In this document: piece by piece, positions 21,657 through 63,347 of the stretch
Layout: each line of letters begins with the position of its first letter
How positions within the stretch are numbered: the first letter of the stretch is position 1
NCBI RefSeq assembly: GCF_001713475.1
Contig: NZ_CP016499.1
Span: 3,068,501-3,132,500 of the forward strand
Direction: 5' to 3'
Length of the DNA: 64,000 nt
DNA from: Agrobacterium sp. RAC06
GTDB lineage: Bacteria; Pseudomonadota; Alphaproteobacteria; Rhizobiales; Rhizobiaceae
Notes under the pieces: model-generated
The model's input: only the letters and a program-made list of their open reading frames with translations
Database searches by the model: none
Told to the model about the DNA's origin: nothing
Translations under genes and position numbers: made by a program

Positions 21657-22433
21657 TCAGACCTGCAGGATCGAGGATACGAGCAGCTGAGTGTAGGGTT
21701 CGCGCGGGTCGTCGAGGACGCGGTCGGTCAGGCCGTGTTCGATGACATGGCCGTCCTTCATCACCATCATCCGGTGGGACAGCAGGCGGGCGACCGCGAG
21801 GTCATGGGTAACGACGACGGCCGAGAGGCCGAGGTCGTTGACGAGGCCGCGGACGAGATCGAGCAGGCGGGCCTGGACCGAGACATCGAGGCCGCCGGTC
21901 GGTTCGTCCATAAAGACGAGGCGAGGGCCGGTGACGAGATTGCGGGCGATCTGCAGGCGCTGGCGCATGCCGCCGGAGAAAGCGCGCGGCTGGTCGTCGA
22001 TGCGATCGGTCGAGATCTCGACGCGCTCCAGCCATTCGCTCGCCGTCTGGCGGATGCGGCCATAGTGGCGATCGCCGACGGCCATCAGGCGTTCACCGAC
22101 ATTGGCGCCGGCAGAGACCGTCATGCGAAGACCATCGGCGGGGTTCTGGTGCACGAAGCCCCAGTCCGTGCGCATCAGGAAGCGGCGTTCGGCTTCACCC
22201 ATGTGATAGAGCTCGCGGTACTGGCCGTCGCGCATGTGGTAATCGACGCTGCCGGTCGTCGGCATCAGCCGGGTCGAGAGGCAGCTCAAAAGCGTCGTCT
22301 TCCCCGAGCCGCTTTCGCCGACGATGGCGAGCACTTCGCCCGGCCAGAGATCAAAGGAGACGTTCGAGCAGCCGATCCGGCTGCCGTAGAACTTGGAGAG
22401 GTTGCGAACTTTCAGAAGCGGCTGGTCGCTCAT
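21657..22433 (-). CDS. phnK: C-P lyase subunit PhnK (ABC-like ATPase)
   Basis: A 258-residue ABC-type ATPase, oligopeptide-transporter-like. Walker A GESGSGKTT (about 35-43), signature FSGGMRQRLQIARNL, Walker B LVFMDEPTGGLD. PhnK docks on PhnJ in the core complex. Its ATG overlaps the phnJ stop by 4 bases. Confidence 0.95.
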   Translation of the reverse strand: MSDQPLLKVRNLSKFYGSRIGCSNVSFDLWPGEVLAIVGESGSGKTTLLSCLSTRLMPTTGSVDYHMRDGQYRELYHMGEAERRFLMRTDWGFVHQNPADGLRMTVSAGANVGERLMAVGDRHYGRIRQTASEWLERVEISTDRIDDQPRAFSGGMRQRLQIARNLVTGPRLVFMDEPTGGLDVSVQARLLDLVRGLVNDLGLSAVVVTHDLAVARLLSHRMMVMKDGHVIEHGLTDRVLDDPREPYTQLLVSSILQV

Positions 22434-23323
22434 TCGGCGGCCTCCTTATTCTTCGCGAGCATTTCGCCGACATGGCCCTCGGCCTGGCGCGTCTCGCAAT
22501 GGTCGGTATCGGAGCAGACGAACATCCGGCCGCCCTTGTCGTCGAGTACAACCTCGTCGAGATAGACGTTGTGGGCGCCGCAGAGCGCGCAGGGCTTGTC
22601 GAATGTCTGGATCTCGAAGGGGTGATCCTCGAAGTCGAGGCTGACGACTTCAGTGAAGGGCGGGACCGCATAGATGCGTTTCTCGCGGCCGGCGCCGAAG
22701 AGCTGAAGCGCCTCCGACATGTGCATCTTGGGATTGTCGAACTTCGGCGTCGGCGACGGGTCCATGACGTAGCGGCCCTCGACCTTCACCGGATAGGCAT
22801 AGGTCGTTGCGATGCGGCCGTGCCTGGCGATGTCTTCGTAGAGCTTCACATGCATTAGGCCGTATTCTTCCAGCGCATGCATCTTGCGGGTCTCGGTCTC
22901 GCGCGGTTCGAGGAAACGCAGCGGTTCCGGGATCGGCACCTGGTAGACCAGCACCTGGCCTTCCCTCAGCTTTTCTTCGGGAATGCGGTGACGAGTCTGG
23001 ATGATCGTCGCTTCGCTGGTCTTGGTGGTGACGGCGACGTCTGCGACCTTCTGGAAGAAGGCGCGGATGGACACGGCATTTGTCGTGTCGTCAGCGCCCT
23101 GATCAATGACCTTCAGCGTGTCGTCGCGGCCAATGATCGAGGCTGTCACCTGCACGCCGCCGGTACCCCAGCCATAGGGCATCGGCATTTCGCGGCTGGC
23201 AAACGGCACCTGATAGCCGGGGATGGCGATCGCTTTCAGGATCGCGCGGCGGATCATGCGTTTGGTCTGTTCGTCCAGATAGGCGAAATTATAGGTCGCG
23301 AGTTCGGTTGCCGGCGCGCTCAT
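22430..23323 (-). CDS. phnJ: C-P lyase catalytic subunit, radical SAM
   Basis: A 297-residue radical S-adenosylmethionine enzyme that cuts the carbon-phosphorus bond of ribose-1-alkylphosphonate 5-phosphate, releasing an alkane. The four Cys are at 245, 248, 270 and 276 (C-x2-C-x21-C-x5-C), the same spacing as E. coli PhnJ Cys241/244/266/272. The start at 23323 (MSAPATELATYNF) overlaps the phnI stop (ATGA). The open frame continues 114 codons upstream, but inside phnI, so it is discarded. Confidence 0.97.
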   Translation of the reverse strand: MSAPATELATYNFAYLDEQTKRMIRRAILKAIAIPGYQVPFASREMPMPYGWGTGGVQVTASIIGRDDTLKVIDQGADDTTNAVSIRAFFQKVADVAVTTKTSEATIIQTRHRIPEEKLREGQVLVYQVPIPEPLRFLEPRETETRKMHALEEYGLMHVKLYEDIARHGRIATTYAYPVKVEGRYVMDPSPTPKFDNPKMHMSEALQLFGAGREKRIYAVPPFTEVVSLDFEDHPFEIQTFDKPCALCGAHNVYLDEVVLDDKGGRMFVCSDTDHCETRQAEGHVGEMLAKNKEAAE

Positions 23324-24426
23324 TCTGCGGCCTCCTTCAGGTCGGTCAGATCTGTCTTGTTGGCGTCGTGCTTTGCCCGCATGCGGCGGACGAGATCCAG
23401 TTCGGCCTGGAAGTCGACGTAATGCGGCAGCTTCAGGTGTTCGACGAAGCCGGTCGCCTGGACGTTGTCGCAATGGGAAATCACGAATTCCTCGTCCTGG
23501 GCGGGGGCGACGACATCCTCGCCGAATTCGTCGGTTCGGAGCGCCCGATCCACCAGTGACATGGACATGGCCTTGCGTTCGCTCTGGCCGAAGACGAGGC
23601 CATAGCCGCGGGTGAATTGCGGTGGAGCCTTGGCCGAACCCTTGAACTGGTTGACCATCTGGCATTCGGTGACGCGGATCTCGCCGAGTGAAACCGCAAA
23701 GCCGAGTTCCGGCACGTCGAATTCGACTTCGACCAGCCCCATGCGGATTTCGCCGACGAAGGGATGGGTGCGGCCATAGCCGCGCTGGGTCGAATAGCCG
23801 AGTGCCAGAAGGAAGCCTTCGTCGCCGCGGGCAAGCGCCTGCAGACGCAGGTCGCGGGGCATCGGAAATTCCATCGGCTCGCGGGTGATGTCGCCGGCGA
23901 TATGATCCTCGGGCATCTCGCCATCCGGCTCGATCAGGCCTTCGCCATCGAGGATGTCGGAGACCCGCATGACTGGATCGAGACCTTCCTCGCGCTGCTC
24001 GCCCATATCCACCGTCTCGTCATCGAGCAGCGAGGGATCGAGCAGGCGATGGGTATAGTCGAAGGTGGGGCCCAGCAGCTGTCCGCCGGGCAGATCCTTG
24101 TAGGTGGCGGAGACACGGCGCTCGACGCGCATCTCGGCCGTTTCGATCGGACGAGACGTGCCGAAGCGCGGCAGCGTTGTGCGGTAGGCGCGCAGGAGGA
24201 AGATCGCCTCGATCATGTCGCCGCGCGACTGCTTCAGGGCGAGGGCTGCGAGCGTGCAGTCGTAGAGCGAGGCCTCGGCCATGACCCGGTCGACGGCGAG
24301 ACCGAGCTGGGCCACGATCTGATCGATCGTCACCGACGGCAGCGACCTGTCACCCCGGCGGCGGTCGGCGAGAAGCTTGTGGGCGTTGGCGATGGCTTTT
24401 TCGCCACCCTTGACGGCTACATACAT
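23320..24426 (-). CDS. phnI: C-P lyase subunit PhnI
   Basis: A 368-residue subunit of the PhnGHIJ core that couples the phosphonate to ATP-derived ribose, displacing adenine. The N-terminus MYVAVKGGEKAI and the LADRRRGD segment are conserved across PhnI. It is 3 bases after phnH and overlaps phnJ. Confidence 0.96.
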   Translation of the reverse strand: MYVAVKGGEKAIANAHKLLADRRRGDRSLPSVTIDQIVAQLGLAVDRVMAEASLYDCTLAALALKQSRGDMIEAIFLLRAYRTTLPRFGTSRPIETAEMRVERRVSATYKDLPGGQLLGPTFDYTHRLLDPSLLDDETVDMGEQREEGLDPVMRVSDILDGEGLIEPDGEMPEDHIAGDITREPMEFPMPRDLRLQALARGDEGFLLALGYSTQRGYGRTHPFVGEIRMGLVEVEFDVPELGFAVSLGEIRVTECQMVNQFKGSAKAPPQFTRGYGLVFGQSERKAMSMSLVDRALRTDEFGEDVVAPAQDEEFVISHCDNVQATGFVEHLKLPHYVDFQAELDLVRRMRAKHDANKTDLTDLKEAAE

Positions 24427-24429
24427 GGC

Positions 24430-25038
24430 TCAGGCCTCCATCTCACGGATCTTGGTCGTGCGCGGCAGCGCGATGAAACGGCGACCCGCGGTCAGCACCA
24501 TGTCGACACCGCGCGGGAACAGAGCACCATTGTCGGCCCATTGGCGCAGGAAGGTTTCGGGCAGACCTTTCGGAGCGATGACGGCGGTGTCGCGAATTCC
24601 AGGGCCTGACAGTTGCAGAGGCTTGCCGCCCTCGAGCGATGGGACCTCGACGACCAGCGTCGTCGAACGATCAGGGTATTCCTGGGTTCCCAGCGCAAAT
24701 TGTGTCAGCGACGGGACAGGCGCGCCTGCTTCGACGAAGGCGAACTTGGCATCCGTCTTTGTGGACGTCAGGCTGGCGCCGGTGTGGAAGCCGATCCAGC
24801 CTGAAAGGGCGGACTTGGCGAGAACAGGCGTGACCCAGATCGGCGTGTCGTGGTCGCACAGAGTCAGCAGCAGGGCGCCAGCCGCGATACCGAGCGGGGC
24901 GGGTGGTGCAACTGCCACGTCGACCACACCGACGCTGCCGGGGCGGGCCATGGCGTCCATGATGCTGCGGAAGACCGTCTGGGCATGGGTAACGGCATCC
25001 GGGAAACCGCCGTCGAGGCTTTCAGTCACTTCGAGCAT
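24430..25038 (-). CDS. phnH: C-P lyase subunit PhnH
   Basis: A 202-residue core subunit of the C-P lyase complex. Conserved regions are FPDAVTHAQTVFRSIMDAMARPG at the start and LQLSGPGIRD and FPRGVDMVLTAG later. Its start shares one base with the phnG stop (TGATG), so the two are coupled. Confidence 0.95.
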   Translation of the reverse strand: MLEVTESLDGGFPDAVTHAQTVFRSIMDAMARPGSVGVVDVAVAPPAPLGIAAGALLLTLCDHDTPIWVTPVLAKSALSGWIGFHTGASLTSTKTDAKFAFVEAGAPVPSLTQFALGTQEYPDRSTTLVVEVPSLEGGKPLQLSGPGIRDTAVIAPKGLPETFLRQWADNGALFPRGVDMVLTAGRRFIALPRTTKIREMEA

Positions 25039-25508
25039 CAGTCTTCTCCGCGAACCATGGTGAAGAAATCGACCTTCGTGGCGGCCGTTTCGGTTTCGAG
25101 CTTTGCGGCTTCCGCCGCGACGCGTGCTTCGAGCGGTGCCAGGAGGCGTGTTTCAGCCAGGGCTCGGCCGGCTTCGTCCTGCGCCAGCGCGTCGAGCACG
25201 GCCGAAAGCTGTGCTGACTTGCGGTCAGTTCCCAGGCGGTAGCCATGACCGATCCGGCCGTCAGAGAGCCGAATGCTCGCGCGGCTGACGGTCGCTTCGC
25301 CGAGATTGAAGGGGGCACCGCCGCCGCCGATGCGGCCCTTGACCATCACGAGACCAGTTTCGGGTCCGCGCAGGGCGGTGTAGACCGGTGCCGGGTCGAA
25401 GGCGGTGAGGGCGTCTTGAAGTTCGGCGAGCGTGGCCCTGGCAAGCAGATCGACGATCCGCTTCCTGGCGGTCTGGGCGCCGCGATCGATGTCGGTGGCT
25501 TTTTCCAT
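25038..25508 (-). CDS. phnG: C-P lyase subunit PhnG
   Basis: A 156-residue subunit and the first gene of the phnGHIJKL operon. The ARQ/ARKR-type N-terminus, the GLVMVKGRIGGGGAPFNLGEATV stretch and the C-terminal KVDFFTMVRGED are typical. It is translated divergently from phnF across a 102-base regulatory gap. Confidence 0.94.
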   Translation of the reverse strand: MEKATDIDRGAQTARKRIVDLLARATLAELQDALTAFDPAPVYTALRGPETGLVMVKGRIGGGGAPFNLGEATVSRASIRLSDGRIGHGYRLGTDRKSAQLSAVLDALAQDEAGRALAETRLLAPLEARVAAEAAKLETETAATKVDFFTMVRGED

Positions 25509-25523
25509 TGTCAGTCCTCGAAA

Positions 25524-25541
25524 TGTCTAGTAATATAGACA
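25524..25541. promoter_or_regulatory. Inverted repeat 1 in the phnG/phnF gap
   Basis: TGTCTA-6 bases-TAGACA, perfect 6-bp arms, 16 bases before the phnG start codon. This GTCTA..TAGAC pattern resembles operators of HutC-type GntR repressors, so PhnF is the likely ligand (inference). Confidence 0.6.
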
Positions 25542-25550
25542 ACCATACAA

Positions 25551-25567
25551 GTTACTTTATGAGTAAC
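25551..25567. promoter_or_regulatory. Inverted repeat 2 in the phnG/phnF gap
   Basis: GTTACT-5 bases-AGTAAC, perfect 6-bp arms. It sits where the -10 region of the Pho-box-driven promoter toward phnG would fall, so a bound repressor would block RNA polymerase. Confidence 0.55.
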
Positions 25568-25575
25568 GCGTGGTC

Positions 25576-25593
25576 GTGACAAGCTTGTGACAG
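25576..25593 (-). promoter_or_regulatory. Pho box upstream of phnG
   Basis: On the minus strand CTGTCAC-AAGC-TTGTCAC. Two heptamers with the 11-base repeat spacing of PhoB sites match the consensus at nearly every position. It lies 68 bases before the phnG start and points at the phn operon, indicating induction under phosphate limitation. Confidence 0.8.
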
Positions 25594-25610
25594 GGGGCGG
25601 TGTTTCCGTG

Positions 25611-26330
25611 ATGCAGAGACAGAAGGGCGTGGCCCTTTGGCGCCAGATTTCCGATCGGATCCGCGCCAATATCCTGACAGGTCTCTATGACAAGACGGGC
25701 ATGGTGCCGGCGGAAACCGCGCTGGCGGAGGAATTCGGCGTCAACCGCCACACGGTGCGCGCGGCACTGGCGGCGCTTGCGCAGGAGGGCATCGTGCGCG
25801 CGGCCCAAGGGCGCGGCACGATGATTACCCAGCGCGACAAGTTCGACTTTCCGATCGGGAGGCGTACCCGCTTCAGCGAAGGCATTGGCGAGCAGGCGCG
25901 GGATCTCAAGGGGATCCTGCTGTCGTCCGCTCGCGAAATTGCCTCCGCCGATCTCGTCAAGCGCCTGAAACTCAATCCAGGCGACGAGGTCTTGCGGCTC
26001 GATGGCATCAGAAAGGCCGACGGTCGTGCCGTCTCACGGTCAACCATGTGGTTTCCGGCAGAGCGGTTTGCTGGCATCGACACGGCATTTGCTGAAACGG
26101 GTTCGATCACCCGGGCGCTCTCTCGCTGTGGTGTCGATGACTACGTCCGTGAGGTCACCGAGATCTCGGCCGTCCACGCAGAGCCTGATGACGTCGTTCA
26201 TCTCGAGTTGACGCCGGGTGCGATCGTACTGGTGACCCGTGCGCTGAATACCGATCCGGCAGGCTGCCCGATTCAGTATGCGGTCACCCGTTTCCCGGCA
26301 GATCGCGTTCAGTTCACGATCCGAAACTGA
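25611..26330 (+). CDS. phnF: GntR/HutC-family regulator of phosphonate genes
   Basis: A 239-residue regulator. It has a GntR winged helix (about 1-75: ANILTGLYDKTGMVPAE, VNRHTVRAALAALAQEGIVRA) and then a HutC/UTRA ligand-binding domain (about 90-235). The ATG at 25611 follows a GGGGG stretch; an upstream GTG at 25587 lies inside the Pho box and is less likely. The divergent position to phnG and the inverted repeats between them support autorepression and repression of the phn operon. The ligand is not determinable. Confidence 0.93.
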   Translation: MQRQKGVALWRQISDRIRANILTGLYDKTGMVPAETALAEEFGVNRHTVRAALAALAQEGIVRAAQGRGTMITQRDKFDFPIGRRTRFSEGIGEQARDLKGILLSSAREIASADLVKRLKLNPGDEVLRLDGIRKADGRAVSRSTMWFPAERFAGIDTAFAETGSITRALSRCGVDDYVREVTEISAVHAEPDDVVHLELTPGAIVLVTRALNTDPAGCPIQYAVTRFPADRVQFTIRN

Positions 26331-26366: not shown

Positions 26367-29300
26367 TCAGGATCCAGCCGCCTGGTAAGCCGCGAGCACG
26401 GCGGCTATCTGGTCCGGGCTCAAGTAGTTGGACTGTGTCGTCGTGATCGCCTGAAGCTGCGCCGACGTCATGTTGGAAATCTGACTGACTGTCAGCCCGG
26501 GGATCGCCTGCTGACTGATGGCTGCCAGATCCTCGGTCGAGAAGGTCCGCAGGTTGTTCGCACCCATCGCCGTCAATTGTGCCGAACTGAGCCCCGCGAC
26601 CTGTGCAGGCGTCAAGGCTTCCGCCTGGGCGGCCGTCAGGGCGCTGACCTGGGCCACGCTCAGACCACCAATCGCCTTGGGATCCATGGCCGAGATCTGG
26701 TCCGTCGTCAGCCAGCCTACCCTGTCCGTTCCCAGTGTTGCCAGTTGGACGGCGTTCATCGCCCCGATCTGTGCCGTCGTCATGGCACCGATCTGATCCT
26801 GGGTCATCGCTCGAAGCTGGTGATAGCTCAGCGCCGCCACCTGACCCGTTGTCAGGGACGCGATCTGCTCTGGCTGCAGGGTGGCAAACACTGTCGGCGA
26901 GAGCCCTCCTACCGCGCTCGGCGAGAGGGCCGCAATGTCGGCGGAGGTCAGCGTTTCGAGTGCCGTCGGACTGAATGCCGACAACTGGGTCGCATTCAAG
27001 GCACCGAACTGCGCCGAAGTCATCGCGTCGATCTGGCTGGCGGTCAGCGTTGCGATCTGCGCCGTGCTCAAGCCGGCGATGGCCTTGGTTGAAATGGCTG
27101 CGATCTGGGTGGCGGACAGACCGGAAATGGTTCCTGCCGAAAGCGAGGCGAGTTGGGTCGCCGTCAGGGCTCCGATCTGGGTCGGGGTCATGACGCCAAG
27201 CTGATCCGGACGCAGGGCGTTCAATTGGTCGAAGGTCAAGGCGCCGATCTGGGCGGCGGTAAGAACACCGATCTGCTCCTGGCTGAGGCCCGCGATGTTG
27301 GCTGCCGACAGGCCGGGAAACGCTGTGGGGGCAATCGCGGCGAGTTCGGCGTTGGAGAAGGTCGCCAGCTGTGCCGACGAAAGTGCTCCGATCTGCGTCG
27401 AGGTGAGCGCGGCAATCTGGGCCTGGCTCATGCTTTCGATCTGCGTGGTCGACATCGAGGCGATCTGTGTCGCCGTCAGGCCAGGGATCGCCTTGACCGT
27501 CAGTGCCGCGATCTTTTCGCTCGTCAGAGTGGCCAGGGCGTCGTTGGTCAATGCGGCGACCTGAGTGGCGCTCAATGCTGCGATCTGGGTGTTGGACAGG
27601 AGCGTGACCTGCTGGGGCGTCATCGCGCCGATCTGTGCCGGGGTCAGTCCCCCGATCTGTGCGGCCGTCAAGGCGCTGATCTGATCCGCTCCCAGACCGG
27701 CGATCTGCTGCGTGGTCAGCCCGGCAATGCCGGTTGCACTGATCGCGGCAAGTTTCGTGGCCGGCAGGTTGCTCAGCTGGGTCGGCGTCAGGGCGGCCAC
27801 TTGTGTGGCCGTCAGGGCACCTATCTGTGCGGTGGTCAGGGCTTCGATCTGGATTGTCGACAGGGCCGCGATCTGGGTCGTCGAGAGCGCGGCAATCGCG
27901 GCCGTGCTGAGGCCTGCGATCTGATCCGGCGTCAGGGCGCCCAAGGCCGCCGTCGTCAACGCTGTCGCCTGCGTTGCGCCGAAGCCTGCCAGCTGTTTTG
28001 CACTCATGGCGTCAAGCTGGGTTGGCGTCAGGGCTGCGACCTGGTCCGTGCTCAGGGCGCCCAGTTGTGCCGGGGTCATGGCGGCAATCTGGTCAATGCT
28101 GAGGGCCGCGATGGTCTCTGCATCGAGGCTGCTCAACGCAGTCGTGTTGATGGCTGCGATTTCTGCCGGCAGGAAGGCGAGGATGTCTGCCTTGCGCATC
28201 GCGCCAAGCTGACTTGCCGTGAGGCCCGAGATTTGGGTCGCCGTCATGGCATCGATCTGATCGGCGGACATGGCCGCGATCTGTTCGTTGCTCAGAGACG
28301 CGATGCTGCGCGCGGAGAGGCTGGCAATCTGCTCGCGTGAAAGCGATGCGATGTTGCTCGGTGAAAGGGCCGCGATTTGCGCGGAGGTCACGGCCTGCAG
28401 CTGGGTGGAAGTCAATGATGCAAGCTGCGTGGGCGTGAAGGCGACCAGTTGCTCGCTTTTCATGGCGGAAATCTGAGCCGTGGTCAGCCTTGCGATCTGC
28501 TCGAGGCTCAAACCGTCGATCTTGTCCGCGGAAATAGATGAGATGGCGCTGGCGGAGATCGACGCAATTTCGGTCGGAAGGAAGGCTGCAAGCTGCTCCT
28601 TGGACAGGGCGCCGATCTGCGGCCCGCTCATCCGTGAAATCTGTGCCGCGGTGAGACCATCGATCTGGCTGTCGTTCAGCGCGGTGATCTGATCGGTCGT
28701 CAATCCGCTGATCGAGGTCGGTGAGACCGCAGCAAGCTGCGACGGTGACCAGACCTTCACAGCGTCGACCGACAGTGCCGACAGCTGCGCCGCCGTCAAG
28801 GCGGTGATCTGACTGTTGGTCATCGATTCGGTCTGGAACGCCGTCAGGCCGGAGACCTGGTCGGCCTTGAGGCCTCTGATCTGGGTGACAGTCAAGGCGG
28901 CGATCTGGGCCGGTGCGAGCGACGCCAGATTCTCCGATGTCAGACCGGTGATCGCCTTTGCGCTAATGGCTGCGATCTTCGCCGGGCTCATCGCCTCAAT
29001 GGCCTCTTGCGGCAATGCTGCGATCTGAGTGGCATTCATCGCGCCGATCTGGCTGGTGCTCAATGCGTCCAGCTGATCCATCGACAGCCCGCCAATCTGC
29101 TCGGCCGTCAGACCGGCGATGGCGCGCGTGCTCAAGGCTGCGATCTGTTCGTCCGAAAAGCCCGTGATGACGTTCTCGGGCATCGCAGCGAGCTGTGGAC
29201 CTGTCAGGCCGCGGATCTGCGTTGGCGTGAGGCCCGCGATCTGGTCTGCCGTGAAGGCTGCGACCTGCGTGGTCTTCAGCGCCGTGATCTGCGCGCTCGA

Positions 29301-30617
29301 CATTGCCCCAATCTGACTAGGGGTCAGGGCGGAGATCTGCGAAGGCGTAAGGCCCGTGACGGCAGACGAACTCAACGCACCGATCTGGGCAGCCGAAAGA
29401 CCAGCGACCTTGTCGCTCGACAGGCTTCCGATCTGGGTTGCGGTCATGGCCGCGATCTGAGAGGTGCTGAGCCCCTTGAGCTGATCGACACTCATCGCGC
29501 CGAGTTGCTCGGCATTCAGGCCAGCGACGGCCTTTGGTGTGAGTGCTGCGATCTGTGTTGCGGTAAAGCCCGCGACGGTCGCTGGCGGCATGGCTGCGAT
29601 CTGTGTCGCGCTGAGCGCCCTGATCTGGGTTGCGGTGAGTGCAGCCAGCTGCTCTTCGCTGAAGGCTGACATCTGGGTGCGGGTGAGAGCGGCAATCTGA
29701 GCGCCGGTGAGGCTCGCCATCTGATCCGGCGACAAAGCCGCGATCTGGTCTACCGAAAGACCCGACATGGCGCGTGGATTGATCGCTGCAATCTGGCTTG
29801 TCGAAAAATTGGCCACCTGTTCGGTACTGAACGCGGGCAGTTGCTTCGAGGTCAGCGTTGCCATCTGCGCCGTGGTCAACGCACCGACCTTTTCATTGCC
29901 CAGACCTGCAATCTGCGTGGTCGAGAGGCCAGTGATCGCACGCGGCGAAATGGCCGCAACTTGCGTCGCGGAGAGCGCGCCAAGTTGGTCGGAGCTCAGC
30001 ACTGCAACCTGGGTTGCACTCAGGGCTGCCATCTGCTGGGTCGAGAAGGCGCCGACTTGCGCGGGGGTGAGCGCTGCGATCTGGGTCGGCGTGAGCGTCG
30101 CGATCTGGTTCGGCTTCAAGGCCGCGATCTGGGTGGTGCTGAACCCGGCCAGTCTCTCGGCAGATTGCCCGCGCAAGGCAGCCGTGTTGATCGCCGCCAT
30201 GTCTTCCGGCGAAAACGTCGCGAGGTCTTCCGCGCTGAAAGCGCTCAGTTGCGTTGCGGTCAATCTGGCGACCTGTGCGGGGGTCAAGGCTTCGGACTGC
30301 TCGGAAGACAACCCGCCGAGCTGGCTTGCCGACATCGCCGCAATCTGCGAGGCAACCAGACTTGAAACATCTTCGGTCGACAGGGCGGTGATCTGGTCCA
30401 GCGTCAGGCCGGTGATCGAACGGGGCGCGATTGCCTTCAACTGCGACGTCGACAGGCCTGCGACGGCTTCCGTCTGCAGCGCCGAGATCTGGGACGACGT
30501 CAGGGCGCCTACCTGCGTGCTCGACAGCTGGCTGATTTCGTCGTCTGACCAGGAGCTAACCGTCGAGTTGGGGAGCGCCCGGATCTGGGCTGGGCTGAGC
30601 AGGGAAATCGACGTCAT
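26367..30617 (-). CDS. Giant octapeptide-repeat protein, 1416 residues, function unknown
   Basis: The protein is a 12-residue head (MTSISLLSPAQI), 174 consecutive octapeptides and a 12-residue tail (ending YQAAGS); 12 + 174x8 + 12 = 1416. The octad consensus is x-A-L-[S/T]-x-x-Q-[I/L/V]. Position 3 is nearly always hydrophobic, position 4 Ser/Thr, and position 7 mostly Gln. There is no signal peptide, membrane segment or visible Cys, and only three Trp. Ser/Thr-x-x-Gln/Glu resembles a helix N-capping box, so each octad might form a short helical turn of a solenoid; a beta-solenoid is an alternative. The start at 30617 has AAGAGG 12 bases upstream. The gene is alone between phnF (convergent) and a P-type ATPase (divergent), so context gives no function. 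Surface, adhesion or scaffolding roles are only guesses. No secretion genes are adjacent. Confidence 0.9.
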   Translation of the reverse strand: MTSISLLSPAQIRALPNSTVSSWSDDEISQLSSTQVGALTSSQISALQTEAVAGLSTSQLKAIAPRSITGLTLDQITALSTEDVSSLVASQIAAMSASQLGGLSSEQSEALTPAQVARLTATQLSAFSAEDLATFSPEDMAAINTAALRGQSAERLAGFSTTQIAALKPNQIATLTPTQIAALTPAQVGAFSTQQMAALSATQVAVLSSDQLGALSATQVAAISPRAITGLSTTQIAGLGNEKVGALTTAQMATLTSKQLPAFSTEQVANFSTSQIAAINPRAMSGLSVDQIAALSPDQMASLTGAQIAALTRTQMSAFSEEQLAALTATQIRALSATQIAAMPPATVAGFTATQIAALTPKAVAGLNAEQLGAMSVDQLKGLSTSQIAAMTATQIGSLSSDKVAGLSAAQIGALSSSAVTGLTPSQISALTPSQIGAMSSAQITALKTTQVAAFTADQIAGLTPTQIRGLTGPQLAAMPENVITGFSDEQIAALSTRAIAGLTAEQIGGLSMDQLDALSTSQIGAMNATQIAALPQEAIEAMSPAKIAAISAKAITGLTSENLASLAPAQIAALTVTQIRGLKADQVSGLTAFQTESMTNSQITALTAAQLSALSVDAVKVWSPSQLAAVSPTSISGLTTDQITALNDSQIDGLTAAQISRMSGPQIGALSKEQLAAFLPTEIASISASAISSISADKIDGLSLEQIARLTTAQISAMKSEQLVAFTPTQLASLTSTQLQAVTSAQIAALSPSNIASLSREQIASLSARSIASLSNEQIAAMSADQIDAMTATQISGLTASQLGAMRKADILAFLPAEIAAINTTALSSLDAETIAALSIDQIAAMTPAQLGALSTDQVAALTPTQLDAMSAKQLAGFGATQATALTTAALGALTPDQIAGLSTAAIAALSTTQIAALSTIQIEALTTAQIGALTATQVAALTPTQLSNLPATKLAAISATGIAGLTTQQIAGLGADQISALTAAQIGGLTPAQIGAMTPQQVTLLSNTQIAALSATQVAALTNDALATLTSEKIAALTVKAIPGLTATQIASMSTTQIESMSQAQIAALTSTQIGALSSAQLATFSNAELAAIAPTAFPGLSAANIAGLSQEQIGVLTAAQIGALTFDQLNALRPDQLGVMTPTQIGALTATQLASLSAGTISGLSATQIAAISTKAIAGLSTAQIATLTASQIDAMTSAQFGALNATQLSAFSPTALETLTSADIAALSPSAVGGLSPTVFATLQPEQIASLTTGQVAALSYHQLRAMTQDQIGAMTTAQIGAMNAVQLATLGTDRVGWLTTDQISAMDPKAIGGLSVAQVSALTAAQAEALTPAQVAGLSSAQLTAMGANNLRTFSTEDLAAISQQAIPGLTVSQISNMTSAQLQAITTTQSNYLSPDQIAAVLAAYQAAGS
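26406..30581 (-). repeat. 174 in-phase 24-bp coding repeats (octapeptide array)
   Basis: I segmented the whole translation by hand into octads ending in the hydrophobic residue at position 8. All 174 stay in one phase with no insertion or deletion. Codons vary between copies, so the DNA copies are diverged and the periodicity is kept at protein level. Typical units: AALTPTQI, GALSATQV, AGLSTTQI, AAMSADQI. Confidence 0.93.
26526..30197 (-). repeat. Nine 408-bp super-repeats (17 octads each)
   Basis: Octads that break the Gln rule (pattern AAIxxxAI, with position 7 Ala/Ser/Gly) recur at numbers 17, 34, 51, 68, 85, 102, 119, 136, 153 and 170, exactly every 17 octads. A second set lies 10 octads later each time: 27, 44, 61, 78, 95, 112, 129, 146, 163. 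The octad after each usually has Gly or Ser at position 2. The unit is thus 136 residues, split 10+7 octads. Confidence 0.88.
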
Positions 30618-31006
30618 CGCTATCGGCCTCTTGTTCTGAAACGAATGTGCTCAAATGTGTTCCACCGGTTGGCATGCAGCCGATCGAGGCAATGCGTCTC
30701 AACCTTTTCAACACCTTCCGGCACAAAGTCTTGTCTGGCGGGTCTGAGGACATCGCGCAGGACCACCTGCTTTTAAGCCGCAAGGCTTGCCTGAGCCTGT
30801 GCTTCCACACCTCCCGGTTGGTTGTCGCCGACAGGCGTCCGAGGCGCGAAGCCGAGGCCGGCATCGTCCAGAATTGTCATAGATCAAGGCGAGAGGCCTA
30901 TCATGACGACATTCTCCCGCACGTCAGCAGATGCAGTACCCGCAAGGGCTGCCGAGGCCATTCTTCAGCGGGCCTGTTCGAGAATCGAAATGCGCAGAGG
31001 ACTGGG
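30618..31006. other. Intergenic region between the octad-repeat gene and the P-type ATPase
   Basis: A 389-base divergent region. It holds an FNR/FixK-like site at 30874-30887 and a possible small leader ORF at 30903-31010. The first 250 bases show no recognisable gene or repeat. The ATPase frame is open through this part but lacks family similarity there. Confidence 0.6.
30874..30887. promoter_or_regulatory. FNR/FixK-type box (anaerobox)
   Basis: TTGTCATAGATCAA differs at one position from TTGAY-N4-RTCAA. It lies 120 bases before the ATPase start. If it acts as an activator at -41.5 the transcript would start near 30922; a CATTCT at 30910-30915 could be the -10. Confidence 0.55.
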
Positions 31007-31010
31007 ATGA
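30903..31010 (+). CDS. Possible 35-residue leader peptide
   Basis: A short frame (starting MTTFSRTSADAVPAR) with AGAGG 6 bases before its ATG. Its TGA overlaps the ATPase ATG (ATGA), as in coupled genes. There is no similarity to a known family. If the FNR-type site drives a start near 30922 this peptide would not be made. It is listed because both the ribosome-binding sequence and the overlap are good. Confidence 0.3.
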   Translation: MTTFSRTSADAVPARAAEAILQRACSRIEMRRGLG

Positions 31011-33712
31011 ACGACAGAACCGCAGATTTTATGCCGCATGCCCTGCCGCCGCAGGTGGTGCTCCAGGCGATGGATACGGATGTCGCGGGGCTCGGGGCAG
31101 AGGAGGCCAAGCGAAGGCTGGAGGTCCATGGTGCCAATCGTCTGCCTGTAGCGCCAAAGCGCAGCCCCGTCGTCCGCTTTCTGTCGCAGTTCCACAATGT
31201 CCTGATTTATGTCCTGCTGGCTTCCGCAGCGGTCACAGGTTTCATGCAGCACTGGATCGATACGGGCGTCATCCTCGCGGTTGTCTTCGGCAATGCCGTC
31301 GTCGGTTATCTGCAGGAAGGTCGTGCCGAAGATGCGATGAATGCGATCAGGGTCATGCTGGCGCCGCATGCCGCGGTGCTGCGTGACGGCCGCCGGACTT
31401 CGGTCGATGCCGCCGATCTCGTGCCGGGAGACATCGTGCTGGTCGAGGCCGGCGATCGCGTTCCCGCGGATCTGCGACTGCTGGAAGCGCGAAGCCTGAA
31501 GGTCGAGGAGGCGGCCCTGACGGGGGAATCGGTGCCTGTCGACAAGACCCACGAAGCCGTCTCAGCCGATTCCGTTCTGGGTGATCGCAGTTCGATGCTG
31601 TTCAGCGGAACGCTGGTTGCCACGGGGACGGGCAAGGGTGTCGTGGTCGCGACTGGCATGGCAACGGAGATCGGCAAGATCAGCGGGATGCTGGAGGCAG
31701 TGGAGTCTCTCTCGACGCCGCTCGTTCGGCAGATGGATGTCTTTGCGCGCTGGCTTACCCTCTTCATCCTCATCATATCGGGCATGCTGCTCGCCTACGG
31801 GCTGGTTGTCAGGCATCTGCCTTTCGATGAACTGTTCATGACCATTGTCGGTCTTGCCGTCGCAGCGATCCCCGAAGGTCTCCCGGCGGTCATGACGATC
31901 ACACTTGCCGTCGGTGTCCAGGCGATGGCTGGTCGCCATGCGATCGTCCGACGACTGCCGGCGATCGAGACACTGGGTTCGGTGTCCGTGATCTGCACGG
32001 ACAAGACTGGTACGCTGACGCGCAATGAAATGGTCGTGGCAAGCCTCGTGGCTGCGCGCCATGTCTATGCCGTTGATGGAGAAGGCTATACACCGGAAGG
32101 TGCCGTCCGCTGGAACGACGCCGATGTCGATCCGCAAGACCACGCCGTTCTCTCCGAATTCGCGCGTGCCGCCGGGCTCTGCAATGACGCCGTGCTGCAT
32201 TCGGCTGATGGCGCCTGGCGCGTGGAAGGCGACCCCATGGAAGGGGCCTTGATGGCGCTTGCGGGCAAGATCACCGGGGGCGGCAGTGATCCCTTCACCG
32301 CAGGTTGGCGACGGATCGATGCCATCCCCTTCGATGCCGCGCATCGCTACATGGCCGTTCTTCACGTCGATGACGAGAACAACAGGCATGTCCATGTAAA
32401 GGGTGCGCCAGAGGCCGTTCTCGAGCTTTGCGCCACCCAGCGCATGCCGGATGGCTCGTCGGCAGCGCTCGACGCGCCATACTGGGAACACATGGTCGAG
32501 GTTCTTGCCTCCGAAGGCCAGCGCGTGCTCGCTGTTGCCGTCGGCGCTCCACCAAGCGGCGGGGCGCATCTTGTCCAGACCGACCTTCCCGGCACGCTGA
32601 CGCTGATTGGACTGGTGGGCCTGATCGATCCGCCGCGCCCGGAAGCGATTGTCGCTGTGGCCGACTGCCATCAGGCAGGCATCCGGGTGAAGATGATCAC
32701 CGGCGACCATGCTGCGACGGCCCGGGCGATCGCTGGAATGATCGGGTTGAAGAACACCGATCGGGTGCTGACCGGAGCGGATCTCGACCGCATGGACGAT
32801 GTCACGCTATCGCTTGCCGCCGCCGAGACCGATATCTTTGCTCGAACCTCGCCGGCTCACAAGTTGCGGCTGGTCACCGCGCTCCAGTCCCAGGGCTTGA
32901 CGGTCGCGATGACCGGTGACGGTGTCAACGATGCGCCGGCCCTCAAGCGGGCCGATGCAGGGATCGCGATGGGCGTGAAGGGCAGCGAAGCGGCGAAGGA
33001 AGCCGCCGAGCTGGTTCTGGCGGACGACAACTTCGCCTCTATTGCCGCCGCCGTTCGTGAGGGGCGCACCGTCTACGACAACATCAAGAAAGTGATCAGT
33101 TGGACCCTGCCGACGAATGCTGGCGAAGCGGGAACTATCATCGTCGCGCTCTTTGCCGGCCTGGCGCTCCCGGTCACGGCCGTCCAGATCCTTTGGATCA
33201 ATCTGGTCACGGCGACTACGCTCGGATTGGCGCTTGCCTTCGAGCCATCGGAAGAGGGTACCATGCGGCGACCACCGCGCCGGCGGGACGAGCCGCTTTT
33301 GACCAGCGACCTCATCTGGCATGTTCTGCTCGTTTCCGTGCTCTTTGCCGCTGCGGTTTTCGGAATTTTCTTCTACGCCCTGGACAGGGGTTATCCGATT
33401 GAGCTCGCACGCACGATGGCGATGAACACCCTGGTCGTCATGGAAATCTTCCACGTCTTCTTCATCCGCAATATCTACGGAACATCGCTCACCTGGCAGG
33501 CCGTGCGCGGGACGAAGGTCGTCTGGATCTGCGTGATCTCCGTATCGGTTGCCCAGTTCGCCGTCACTTATCTGCCCTTCATGCAATCCCTGTTCGGGAC
33601 GCAGAGCGTTCCCCTGCAGGACGGGTTGCTGATCGTCGGGATCGGGGCCGTGTTCTTCGCTCTGGTGGAAATCGAAAAGCAGATGCGTTTGGCATTCCGC
33701 AATCGGGGCTGA
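31007..33712 (+). CDS. P-type cation-transporting ATPase (P2/SERCA-PMR type)
   Basis: A 901-residue membrane pump. It has an N-terminal cation-ATPase domain (about 10-75), actuator with LTGESVPVDK, M4 motif PEGLP (Pro289), phosphorylation site DKTGT (Asp332), hinge MTGDGVNDAP (Met635), and about ten membrane helices. Compared with SERCA, the M5 Asn/Glu (NAGEAG) and the M6 Asn732/Thr735 ion ligands are kept, but the key M6 Asp (SERCA Asp800) is Ala736 (NLVTATT). The exported or imported ion is therefore uncertain: not a standard Ca2+ pump, possibly Na+/K+/H+ related. The start at 31007 follows GAGG and matches the family N-terminus; the frame is open 120 codons further upstream. Control by an oxygen-responsive regulator is suggested by the FNR-like site. 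Confidence 0.9.
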   Translation: MNDRTADFMPHALPPQVVLQAMDTDVAGLGAEEAKRRLEVHGANRLPVAPKRSPVVRFLSQFHNVLIYVLLASAAVTGFMQHWIDTGVILAVVFGNAVVGYLQEGRAEDAMNAIRVMLAPHAAVLRDGRRTSVDAADLVPGDIVLVEAGDRVPADLRLLEARSLKVEEAALTGESVPVDKTHEAVSADSVLGDRSSMLFSGTLVATGTGKGVVVATGMATEIGKISGMLEAVESLSTPLVRQMDVFARWLTLFILIISGMLLAYGLVVRHLPFDELFMTIVGLAVAAIPEGLPAVMTITLAVGVQAMAGRHAIVRRLPAIETLGSVSVICTDKTGTLTRNEMVVASLVAARHVYAVDGEGYTPEGAVRWNDADVDPQDHAVLSEFARAAGLCNDAVLHSADGAWRVEGDPMEGALMALAGKITGGGSDPFTAGWRRIDAIPFDAAHRYMAVLHVDDENNRHVHVKGAPEAVLELCATQRMPDGSSAALDAPYWEHMVEVLASEGQRVLAVAVGAPPSGGAHLVQTDLPGTLTLIGLVGLIDPPRPEAIVAVADCHQAGIRVKMITGDHAATARAIAGMIGLKNTDRVLTGADLDRMDDVTLSLAAAETDIFARTSPAHKLRLVTALQSQGLTVAMTGDGVNDAPALKRADAGIAMGVKGSEAAKEAAELVLADDNFASIAAAVREGRTVYDNIKKVISWTLPTNAGEAGTIIVALFAGLALPVTAVQILWINLVTATTLGLALAFEPSEEGTMRRPPRRRDEPLLTSDLIWHVLLVSVLFAAAVFGIFFYALDRGYPIELARTMAMNTLVVMEIFHVFFIRNIYGTSLTWQAVRGTKVVWICVISVSVAQFAVTYLPFMQSLFGTQSVPLQDGLLIVGIGAVFFALVEIEKQMRLAFRNRG

Positions 33713-61601: not shown

Positions 61602-63347
61602 TCAGATTGCCGGGCTTGGCTCTTCCTTCAGAAGGCCACTGGTGCGCAGGAGTGAGGTGAAGCGACCACCGAGCGCGCTCAGCTGGTCGTAATTGCCCAT
61701 CTCGATCACCTGGCCATGGTCGAGGAAGACGACAAGGTCGGCTTCGCGAATGGTCGAGAGGCGGTGGGCGATGATGAAGGTGGTGCGGTTCTTTCTGAGC
61801 CGGTCGATTGCCTGTTTGACGCGGGCTTCCGTTTCGACGTCAAGCGCGCTGGTGGCTTCGTCTAGCACGAGGATCGGCGCGTTCTTGAGGATCGCACGAG
61901 CGATGGCAATGCGCTGGCGTTCGCCGCCGGACAGGCGGTTGCCGCGCTCGCCGACATGGGTGTCGTAGCCGATCATGCGGCTTTCAATGAAGTCTGTAGC
62001 GGCGGCTGCTTCGGCCGCCTGGATGATTTCCTCCTCGGTCGCGTCCTCGCGACCAAGGCGGATATTCTCCTTGATCGAACGGTTCAGCAGGCCTGCATCC
62101 TGGAAAACAGTCGCGATCGAGTGGCGCAGCGACTTCCTGGTCACCTTGGCGATGTCCTGGCCGTCGATCAGGATCTGACCCGACTGGGGATCATAGACGC
62201 GCTGCAGGAGGTTTATGAGCGTGGTCTTGCCGGCGCCCGTTGGACCGACGATGGCAACCGTCTGGCCTGCGCGGGCATGGAAGGAAATATCGCGCACGCC
62301 CTGGGTGGTGGAGGCGAAATCGAAGGAAACGTTGCGGAACTCCACATCGCCGCGAACCGGCTCGAGGTCGGCCGAACCTGCGCGCTCCTCGCGTTCCTGC
62401 ACGGCGTCCTCAAGCTTGTAAAAGTCTTCGAGTTTAGATCGCGCTTCGAAGATCTGGTTCACGAAGGCGATCATCTGATCGAGACGGGAGATCAAGAGGG
62501 TGGCAAAGCCTGTGAAGGCGATGATGTCGCCGACCGTCAATTCGCCTCGCTGAACCAGCAGTGTGCCGATTACGAGGATGACGAGCATAGACAGTGTCGA
62601 AGCGATGCGGTTCAGGGCGCCTGCCAGCGCCCACCAATCGAGGACCGGATACTGAGCGGAGAGCAGCTTGGTCGTGTATTCTTTCAGCGCGCGCGTCTCC
62701 GCCTCGATGCGGTTGTAGCTGTGCAGGACCGAGACGTTGCTGATCGAGTCGCTCACATGGGAAAAGACCGTGTGATAGTGGCTCTCCACCGAGGCCTGGC
62801 CTTCCTTGGTCCTGTTCATCACTGTCTTGCCGATGATGACATAAAGGACAGCCAGGATGATCAGGACCGATGTGAGCCGCACGTCCATCGAAAAGGCGGT
62901 CGGGATCAACAAGGCCAATGCAACGGCTGTCGCCAGATGGGTTCGCATGAATTCCAGCCATAGCCCGAACAGCGTCTCACCCGCGCGCAACAGCGTATGC
63001 AGGGCATTCGAGGTGCCGCGCGTGTGGTGCCAGCTGAGCGGCATGGAAATGATCTTGCCGAATGATTCGGTCAGCAGATCCGCGCGGCGGCCATGGGCCA
63101 GTCGATCGGCCTGGCGCGCGACAAGCACATAGGCGACCGTGTTGAATACGCCGAAGCAGCCCCAGGCGATCAGGATTCCCGTGGCGTCCCGCTTTTCCGA
63201 GATCGCATCAATGATGCGACCGAAAAGAATGGGCTCGAGGATCGTAATGACAGCGAGAACGACGTTCGCAGCGACGACGAGTGAAACTCTTAACTTGTAA
63301 CTTGCAAGGTATTTCAGGGCCTTGAAATATACTTGTAGCAGGGACAA
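61602..63347 (-). CDS. ndvA: Cyclic beta-1,2-glucan ABC exporter
   Basis: A 581-residue exporter half-transporter (NdvA/ChvA): a six-helix membrane domain (about 15-310) fused to an ATPase domain (Walker A GPTGAGKTT, signature LSGGERQRIAIARAIL, Walker B LVLDEATSALD). It exports cyclic beta-1,2-glucan to the periplasm, needed for nodule invasion, attachment and hypo-osmotic growth. The N-terminus SLLQVYFKALKYL matches the family; the start is a TTG at 63347 with AAGGTG 7 bases upstream. The convergent photolyase gene ends 15 bases away. Confidence 0.94.
   Translation of the reverse strand: MSLLQVYFKALKYLASYKLRVSLVVAANVVLAVITILEPILFGRIIDAISEKRDATGILIAWGCFGVFNTVAYVLVARQADRLAHGRRADLLTESFGKIISMPLSWHHTRGTSNALHTLLRAGETLFGLWLEFMRTHLATAVALALLIPTAFSMDVRLTSVLIILAVLYVIIGKTVMNRTKEGQASVESHYHTVFSHVSDSISNVSVLHSYNRIEAETRALKEYTTKLLSAQYPVLDWWALAGALNRIASTLSMLVILVIGTLLVQRGELTVGDIIAFTGFATLLISRLDQMIAFVNQIFEARSKLEDFYKLEDAVQEREERAGSADLEPVRGDVEFRNVSFDFASTTQGVRDISFHARAGQTVAIVGPTGAGKTTLINLLQRVYDPQSGQILIDGQDIAKVTRKSLRHSIATVFQDAGLLNRSIKENIRLGREDATEEEIIQAAEAAAATDFIESRMIGYDTHVGERGNRLSGGERQRIAIARAILKNAPILVLDEATSALDVETEARVKQAIDRLRKNRTTFIIAHRLSTIREADLVVFLDHGQVIEMGNYDQLSALGGRFTSLLRTSGLLKEEPSPAI

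Follow-up and report, generated by a model that had tools for sequence, protein, structure and literature searches.

A 174-octad ALTTAQ-repeat protein of Agrobacterium sp. RAC06 and the GT41 glycosyltransferases linked to its sibling arrays

The octad array and its genomic setting

The window, the whole stretch of 64,000 nucleotides analysed here, covers positions 3,068,501 to 3,132,500 of contig NZ_CP016499.1 from Agrobacterium sp. RAC06. In it, a CDS for a 1416 aa ALTTAQ-repeat protein (26367..30617), identified by its match to PF20080 and by dN/dS against five orthologs, is flanked on one side by phnF, which belongs to a cluster for phosphonate C-P lyase, and on the other by a gene for a P-type ATPase. 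The preliminary description gave no strand for this open reading frame; it lies on the minus strand, and the frame on the opposite, plus strand of the same interval is interrupted by stops. Segmentation confirms the layout first described, which is 12 residues, 174 octads, and 12 residues with the phase unbroken, while segmentation and lag analysis together define the array (residues 13–1404, 26406..30581, minus strand) as one with a 17-octad (136 aa) super-repeat. Degenerate octads are also present within the first 12 and the last 12 residues.

The tandem x-A-L-[ST]-x-x-Q-[ILV] pattern of PF20080 is present as 174 in-phase octads, with 1.3–2.7 bits of information per position. Position 3 is L/M/F/I and position 8 is I/L/V, position 4 is S/T in 140 of the 174 octads, and position 7 is Q in 120. 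The earlier claim of strict octads with diverged copies is supported, and that of a protein free of Cys is borne out by a count of zero in its composition. The C-terminal 32 residues (26370..26465, minus strand) are predicted by AlphaFold2 to form two longer helices of 14 and 15 residues, and a Tyr near the C-terminal end is common to 24 of the 25 loci of the genus for which array ends were listed. Upstream, 9 nt 5' of the ATG, there is by eye a Shine-Dalgarno-like AAGAGG (30627..30632, minus strand), and an element of this type also precedes the gene in all five orthologs compared, again by eye.

The convergent neighbour is phnF (25587..26330, plus strand), a phosphonate regulator. The divergent neighbour, encoding the P-type (Ca2+-type) ATPase (30647..33712, plus strand), probably has its real start further downstream than 30647, and is found beside five of the eight distinct orthologs. 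The minus-strand C-P lyase genes phnJ, phnI, phnH, and phnG, together with the plus-strand phnF, occupy 22430–26330 of the window. Elsewhere in the window, at 61602–63347 (minus strand), there is a ChvA-type beta-glucan exporter (TIGR01192, 1047.8 bits).

Eight distinct orthologs were examined (L009–L013, L062, L066, and L067), L070 and L071 having been left out as duplicates of L010 and L012, and phnF and phnG adjoin all eight. Six relatives carry names, and their records belong to Rhizobiaceae or are labelled 'Rhizobiales bacterium'; they include Agrobacterium albertimagni, Rhizobium rosettiformans, and Rhizobium sp. RU33A. Comparison of the window gene with five orthologs gives NG86 dN/dS of 0.086–0.103, with dS uncertain for three of them because pS is 0.60–0.62 in these comparisons. 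Judged from these ratios, the window gene is under purifying selection, which supports the earlier suggestion that selection acts upon the protein. Conservation among the orthologs is highest at position 7 (Gln) and lowest at positions 5 and 6. The syntenic ortholog L062, in genome G027, is 50% identical to the window protein across 174 octads that align in a single register without gaps, so that the number of octads has been kept despite this divergence. Runs of octads in phase extend to 176 in eight of the nine distinct loci, including that of the window, and to 178 in L067.

Family membership, predicted fold and register

The window protein is matched by the Pfam family PF20080 (ALTTAQ_rpt) with an E of 7.3e-198 and 640.4 bits, above the gathering cut-off of 26.4 bits, in 58 stretches that cover the protein, and the earlier statement that it has no known domain is therefore wrong. 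The octads, the diverged copies, the selection, and the N-cap solenoid of the preliminary description all stand; the known Pfam repeat, the 17-octad super-period, and the two further ALTTAQ proteins in the genome were absent from it. PF00353, the RTX calcium-binding nonapeptide, is not among the nine families that match the window protein at E<=1, and there are 7 N-x-S/T sites in its 1416 residues, not the dense sites expected of an HMW1-type adhesin.

Other PF20080 proteins share the octad consensus and the long arrays. Most of the 120 database relatives listed carry extra domains, whereas the window protein consists of octads alone. In these database proteins (P0002–P0121) the repeats are fused to filamentous-haemagglutinin, calpain-type protease, RTX, Ig-like, and G8 domains. 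A solved chain of 120 residues, HeliScrew4 (PDB 9zem), is made of LTPEQIAA-type octads (phmmer E 9.9e-19); its name suggests that it is a designed protein. It is of the same octad type as the window protein, a likeness of sequence, but it is short beside 174 octads, and the 50 matches listed by the fold searches, which used a library to April 2026, do not include it. The preliminary description had known of no assigned structure or role. A solved chain of such octads does exist in 9zem, and in the literature searched with the terms ALTTAQ and PF20080 no role for the family was found: 'ALTTAQ' returned no paper, and the publications in which 'PF20080' occurs deal, to judge from their titles, with unrelated subjects. 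The part of a 2024 alpha-solenoid review that sets out eight subfolds has no octapeptide type among them (PMC11514114). The ALTTAQ proteins would be a little-studied family of rod proteins.

AlphaFold2 models of residues 1–556 (mean pLDDT 94.0) and 861–1416 (mean pLDDT 91.8) have one short helix per octad, in which position 4 is the N-cap and the helix starts at about position 5, the first helical residue. The earlier idea that the Ser/Thr of position 4 caps the helices of a regular solenoid is supported by these models. Resemblance between octads of the window protein is greatest at lag 17, with a z of 8.51 against a best of 3.55 in 1000 shuffles of octad order. The joint Fourier peaks lie at 2/17, 5/17, and 7/17, which are harmonics 3, 1, and 2 of 5/17, and charge has a peak at 3.41 octads with a power of 17.2 (maximum of 300 shuffles, 11.1).

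The register was surveyed in 157 candidate proteins, of which 90 with at least 40 octads in phase were kept, 37 alphaproteobacterial and 53 from the protein database. Over lags 1–35 the mean z of the 37 alphaproteobacterial arrays is above zero solely at 3, 7, 10, 14, 17, 20, 24, 27, 31, and 34. The top lag, in the range 6–36, is 17 in 24 arrays, 24 in five, 27 in four, 10 in three, and 31 in one, with a z below 4 in three of the 37, and all of these lags are near multiples of 3.4. This preference is read as 3.4 octads per turn of the solenoid. The super-repeat units found elsewhere, of 24 octads in L057 and L061 and of 31 octads in L059, correspond to 7 and 9 turns if each turn takes about 3.43 octads, so that units of different length all keep their turns nearly whole. 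The 3.4-octad register is not seen in the 53 database arrays, in which, unlike the window protein with its 17-octad register, a two-octad alternation dominates. The repeat, the selection, the 17-octad register, and the Pfam membership are established.

The window protein is expected to wind up as a long, slender rod with about 3.4 octads per turn, in which 17 octads would be 5 turns and 174 octads would make about 51. An ARM-like rise would make such a rod roughly 50 nm long. The nearest solved folds to the model include mesothelin, and the superhelices of ARM repeats and mesothelin are, like the model, alpha-solenoids of short helices. An ARM repeat spans 3.35–3.95 octads (median 3.6, from the 16 ARM rows among the 50 best matches listed), which is a rough fit to 3.4 and not an exact one.

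GT41 genes beside the sibling arrays and position 5 of the octad

The genome of strain RAC06 encodes three ALTTAQ proteins, that of the window and two more. One sibling, of 1724 aa (L016:7203-12377), is divergent from a gene (L016:4609-6660) whose product scores 231.9 bits with PF13844 against a cut-off of 25 and so belongs to GT41. Seven Pfam TPR models also match this enzyme, all below their cut-offs (the best at 28.8 against 32.7 bits). Its best solved relative is XcOGT (E 1.3e-74), the match to HMW1C being far weaker (E 2.9e-5). In the alignment of the enzyme with XcOGT the DHAVG His, a Lys, and HSTASDAL coincide, and these are presumably the catalytic places. When these were checked as patterns, DHAVG was found in 13 of 18 class-A rows, and of 35 rows none showed the Lys pattern, class A being defined as GT41 scoring at least 635 bits. 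The adjacent L016:3303-4556 (minus strand, 417 aa), which is present in several loci of the genus, has a DDD motif and PF12248, and its product looks by eye like a further sugar transferase.

Co-occurrence was assessed in 60 relatives, including strain RAC06 itself, 30 with ALTTAQ and 30 without. Class-A GT41 is present in 29 of the 30 genomes with ALTTAQ and in none of those without, where the best GT41 score is 337 bits; within the genus the figures are 28 of 29 and 0 of 7. Fisher tests that ignore relatedness give 5e-16 for the full set and 1e-6 for the genus. An array lies no more than 1.9 kb from the GT41 in 27 of the 29 class-A loci (26 by the first pattern, together with L041). The exceptions are L022, which ends with its contig, and L043, for which the nearest array is about 17 kb away (L065). 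This adjacency persists between class-A loci while gene order and strand vary. Among other GT41, only one of the 81 places listed, from 16 genomes with ALTTAQ, has a listed array less than 20 kb away, at about 12 kb. The same 20-kb locus contains glf in 22 of the 29 class-A loci (once at 38% identity) and galE in 14, while at the same threshold neither was found in the loci outside the genus.

When 35 GT41 domains are placed on a tree, the class-A enzymes that adjoin arrays come from four families and group in a single clade (100/100 support, 18 rows), and two further array-adjacent GT41 groups are placed elsewhere, bringing the adjacency to six families overall, four with class-A and two with other GT41s. 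Beyond the close relatives, ALTTAQ is found at E<=1e-7 in 6 of 337 Alphaproteobacteria, including strain RAC06. Three of these (G262, G234, and G330) have GT41 0.2–4 kb from the array, while G099 has it only elsewhere in the genome and G200 has none. In the phylum, 8 of 398 genomes, again including strain RAC06, have ALTTAQ at E<=1e-9, and all seven of the others carry GT41. Among the loci fetched from these seven, GT41 is next to the array in two: in G729, where a frame of 5446 residues is some 0.1 kb away, and in G484, as a 3767 aa protein with multiple GT41 about 1.2 kb from the array. This last protein (L087:5251-16554, minus strand) has at least four GT41 domains. Two other genomes may be mentioned: G427, with 58 GT41 matches, and the control Caulobacter vibrioides, which matches PF20080 (not at E<=1e-9) and PF13844.

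Arrays with at least 15 octads of the core motif were compared by the share of Ser/Thr at position 5 in those octads, which leaves out small arrays such as two in L042. The 35 arrays with GT41 within 6 kb have a share of 0.61–0.99 (median 0.87), and the window protein and its eight orthologs 0.25–0.36. The window protein itself is at 0.31 (95 core octads), and does not reach the half that marks the Ser/Thr-rich class. The 31 arrays without GT41 in the fetched flank, for some of which the array or the flank runs to the end of the stretch, are bimodal, with 13 at 0.25–0.36 and 18 at 0.55–0.88. The low group is made up of the window protein, its eight orthologs, L055, L056, L058, and L063. For 17 of the 18 high arrays the genome carries GT41 elsewhere, the remaining one being L014. 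Both classes occur within single genomes, with L016 at 0.86 and L015 at 0.80 against the window protein at 0.31, and L057 at 0.95 against L058 at 0.26. G027 is the sole genome of the genus with ALTTAQ and without any GT41, and in this one genome both arrays are low (0.25 and 0.31). One of them, L063, is 36% similar to L015 and 35% to the window protein, with no synteny with L015. The median in 106 database proteins is 0.22. In the models the helix opens with position 5, and in the window protein this is one of the positions that change fastest, so that it is probably exposed. The co-occurrence and adjacency of GT41 with the sibling arrays, and the split into two classes at position 5, are established.

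A possible glycoprotein system

There is no GT41 near the window gene or its orthologs, and its own role is therefore argued from its siblings. In the sibling arrays, the Ser/Thr of position 5 would be O-glycosylated in the cytosol by the neighbouring GT41; glf and galE in the same loci suggest that the sugar may be of galactose type. The window protein has no such pattern of acceptors at position 5 and is therefore read as a bare rod. That it is a rod of 174 octads with some 3.4 of them to the turn, and the uncoated counterpart of Ser/Thr-rich rods on which the neighbouring GT41 is predicted to place sugar, is a reading with about as much for it as against it. Slightly less probable is the wider proposal of an unrecognised bacterial glycoprotein system built on ALTTAQ arrays. 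It would comprise a superhelix of one helix per octad and 3.4 octads per turn, with a sugar attached to almost all octads at the residue that opens the helix, an OGT-like GT41 devoted to this task, with glf/galE as donor genes in rhizobia, and, in part of the lineage, an uncoated window rod of near-fixed length that works together with the coated ones.

A parallel for a GT41 beside a giant protein is HMW1/HMW1C of Haemophilus. In the passages of PMC3983070 that concern it, the GT41 HMW1C modifies the adjoining giant HMW1 in the cytosol, makes N-links at NxS/T, and has no TPR fold. Here, in contrast, the links would be O-links, and the enzyme linked to the siblings is far closer to XcOGT.

The rods may leave the cell, in which case glycosylation would precede exit, and outside the cell the bare window rod would be a fixed-length spacer or a partner of the coated rods. 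Export is the weakest step, because it is only in a distant genus that a pair of type I secretion genes neighbours the array, HlyD and HlyB-type ABC genes lying between the GT41 and the array in L057 and L061. The ABC exporter of strain RAC06 nearest to that of L061 is only 30% identical and is beside a 2013 aa ORF (L086:13134-19175, minus strand), perhaps the own substrate of that type I pair, and is accordingly not assigned to the rods as their exporter. The rods could instead be cytosolic scaffolds that stay inside, with the OGT-like enzyme marking the sibling arrays internally. No signal peptide is evident by eye at the N-terminus of the window protein, as the preliminary description had it, the best solved relative of the sibling GT41 is XcOGT, and a pair of the L061 type was not found among the conserved neighbours of the arrays of the genus. 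Such scaffolds, which we consider somewhat unlikely, are opposed by the secretion genes in L057 and L061 and by the listed set of 120 database relatives, where the repeat is joined to domains of the filamentous-haemagglutinin, RTX, and Ig-like kinds.

It would be less probable still that GT41 and the arrays only travel together, the enzyme having another true target and the Ser/Thr of position 5 being a habit of composition in the lineage. One genus does supply most of the loci compared, and it holds many further GT41 paralogues. However, the adjacency is kept through changes of gene order and strand and recurs in six families, all but one of the 81 other GT41 places listed have no listed array within 20 kb, high and low arrays coexist in single genomes, and G027, without GT41, has two low arrays. 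Lastly, the bare window rod might be a lectin-like partner that binds its sugar-coated siblings, a role of the kind proposed for mesothelin-type ARM superhelices in the relevant part of PMC2628672. Mesothelin among the nearest solved folds, the nearly fixed number of octads, and an acidic face that recurs every 3.4 octads would fit such a partner, which we regard as very improbable. The reading of the window protein as the bare counterpart of glycosylated siblings is the one retained here.

While PF20080 and 9zem were already known, the predicted octad helices, the 17-octad register, the link to GT41, and the split at position 5 are new. The GT41 link and the position-5 signature make PF20080 a testable glycoprotein system, in which the Ser/Thr-rich and the bare arrays provide a control inside one genome, and through which a class of bacterial OGT-like enzymes gains a probable substrate. 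The 3.4-octad register ties the period of the sequence to the geometry of the solenoid, and would be a guide for the design of helical-screw proteins.
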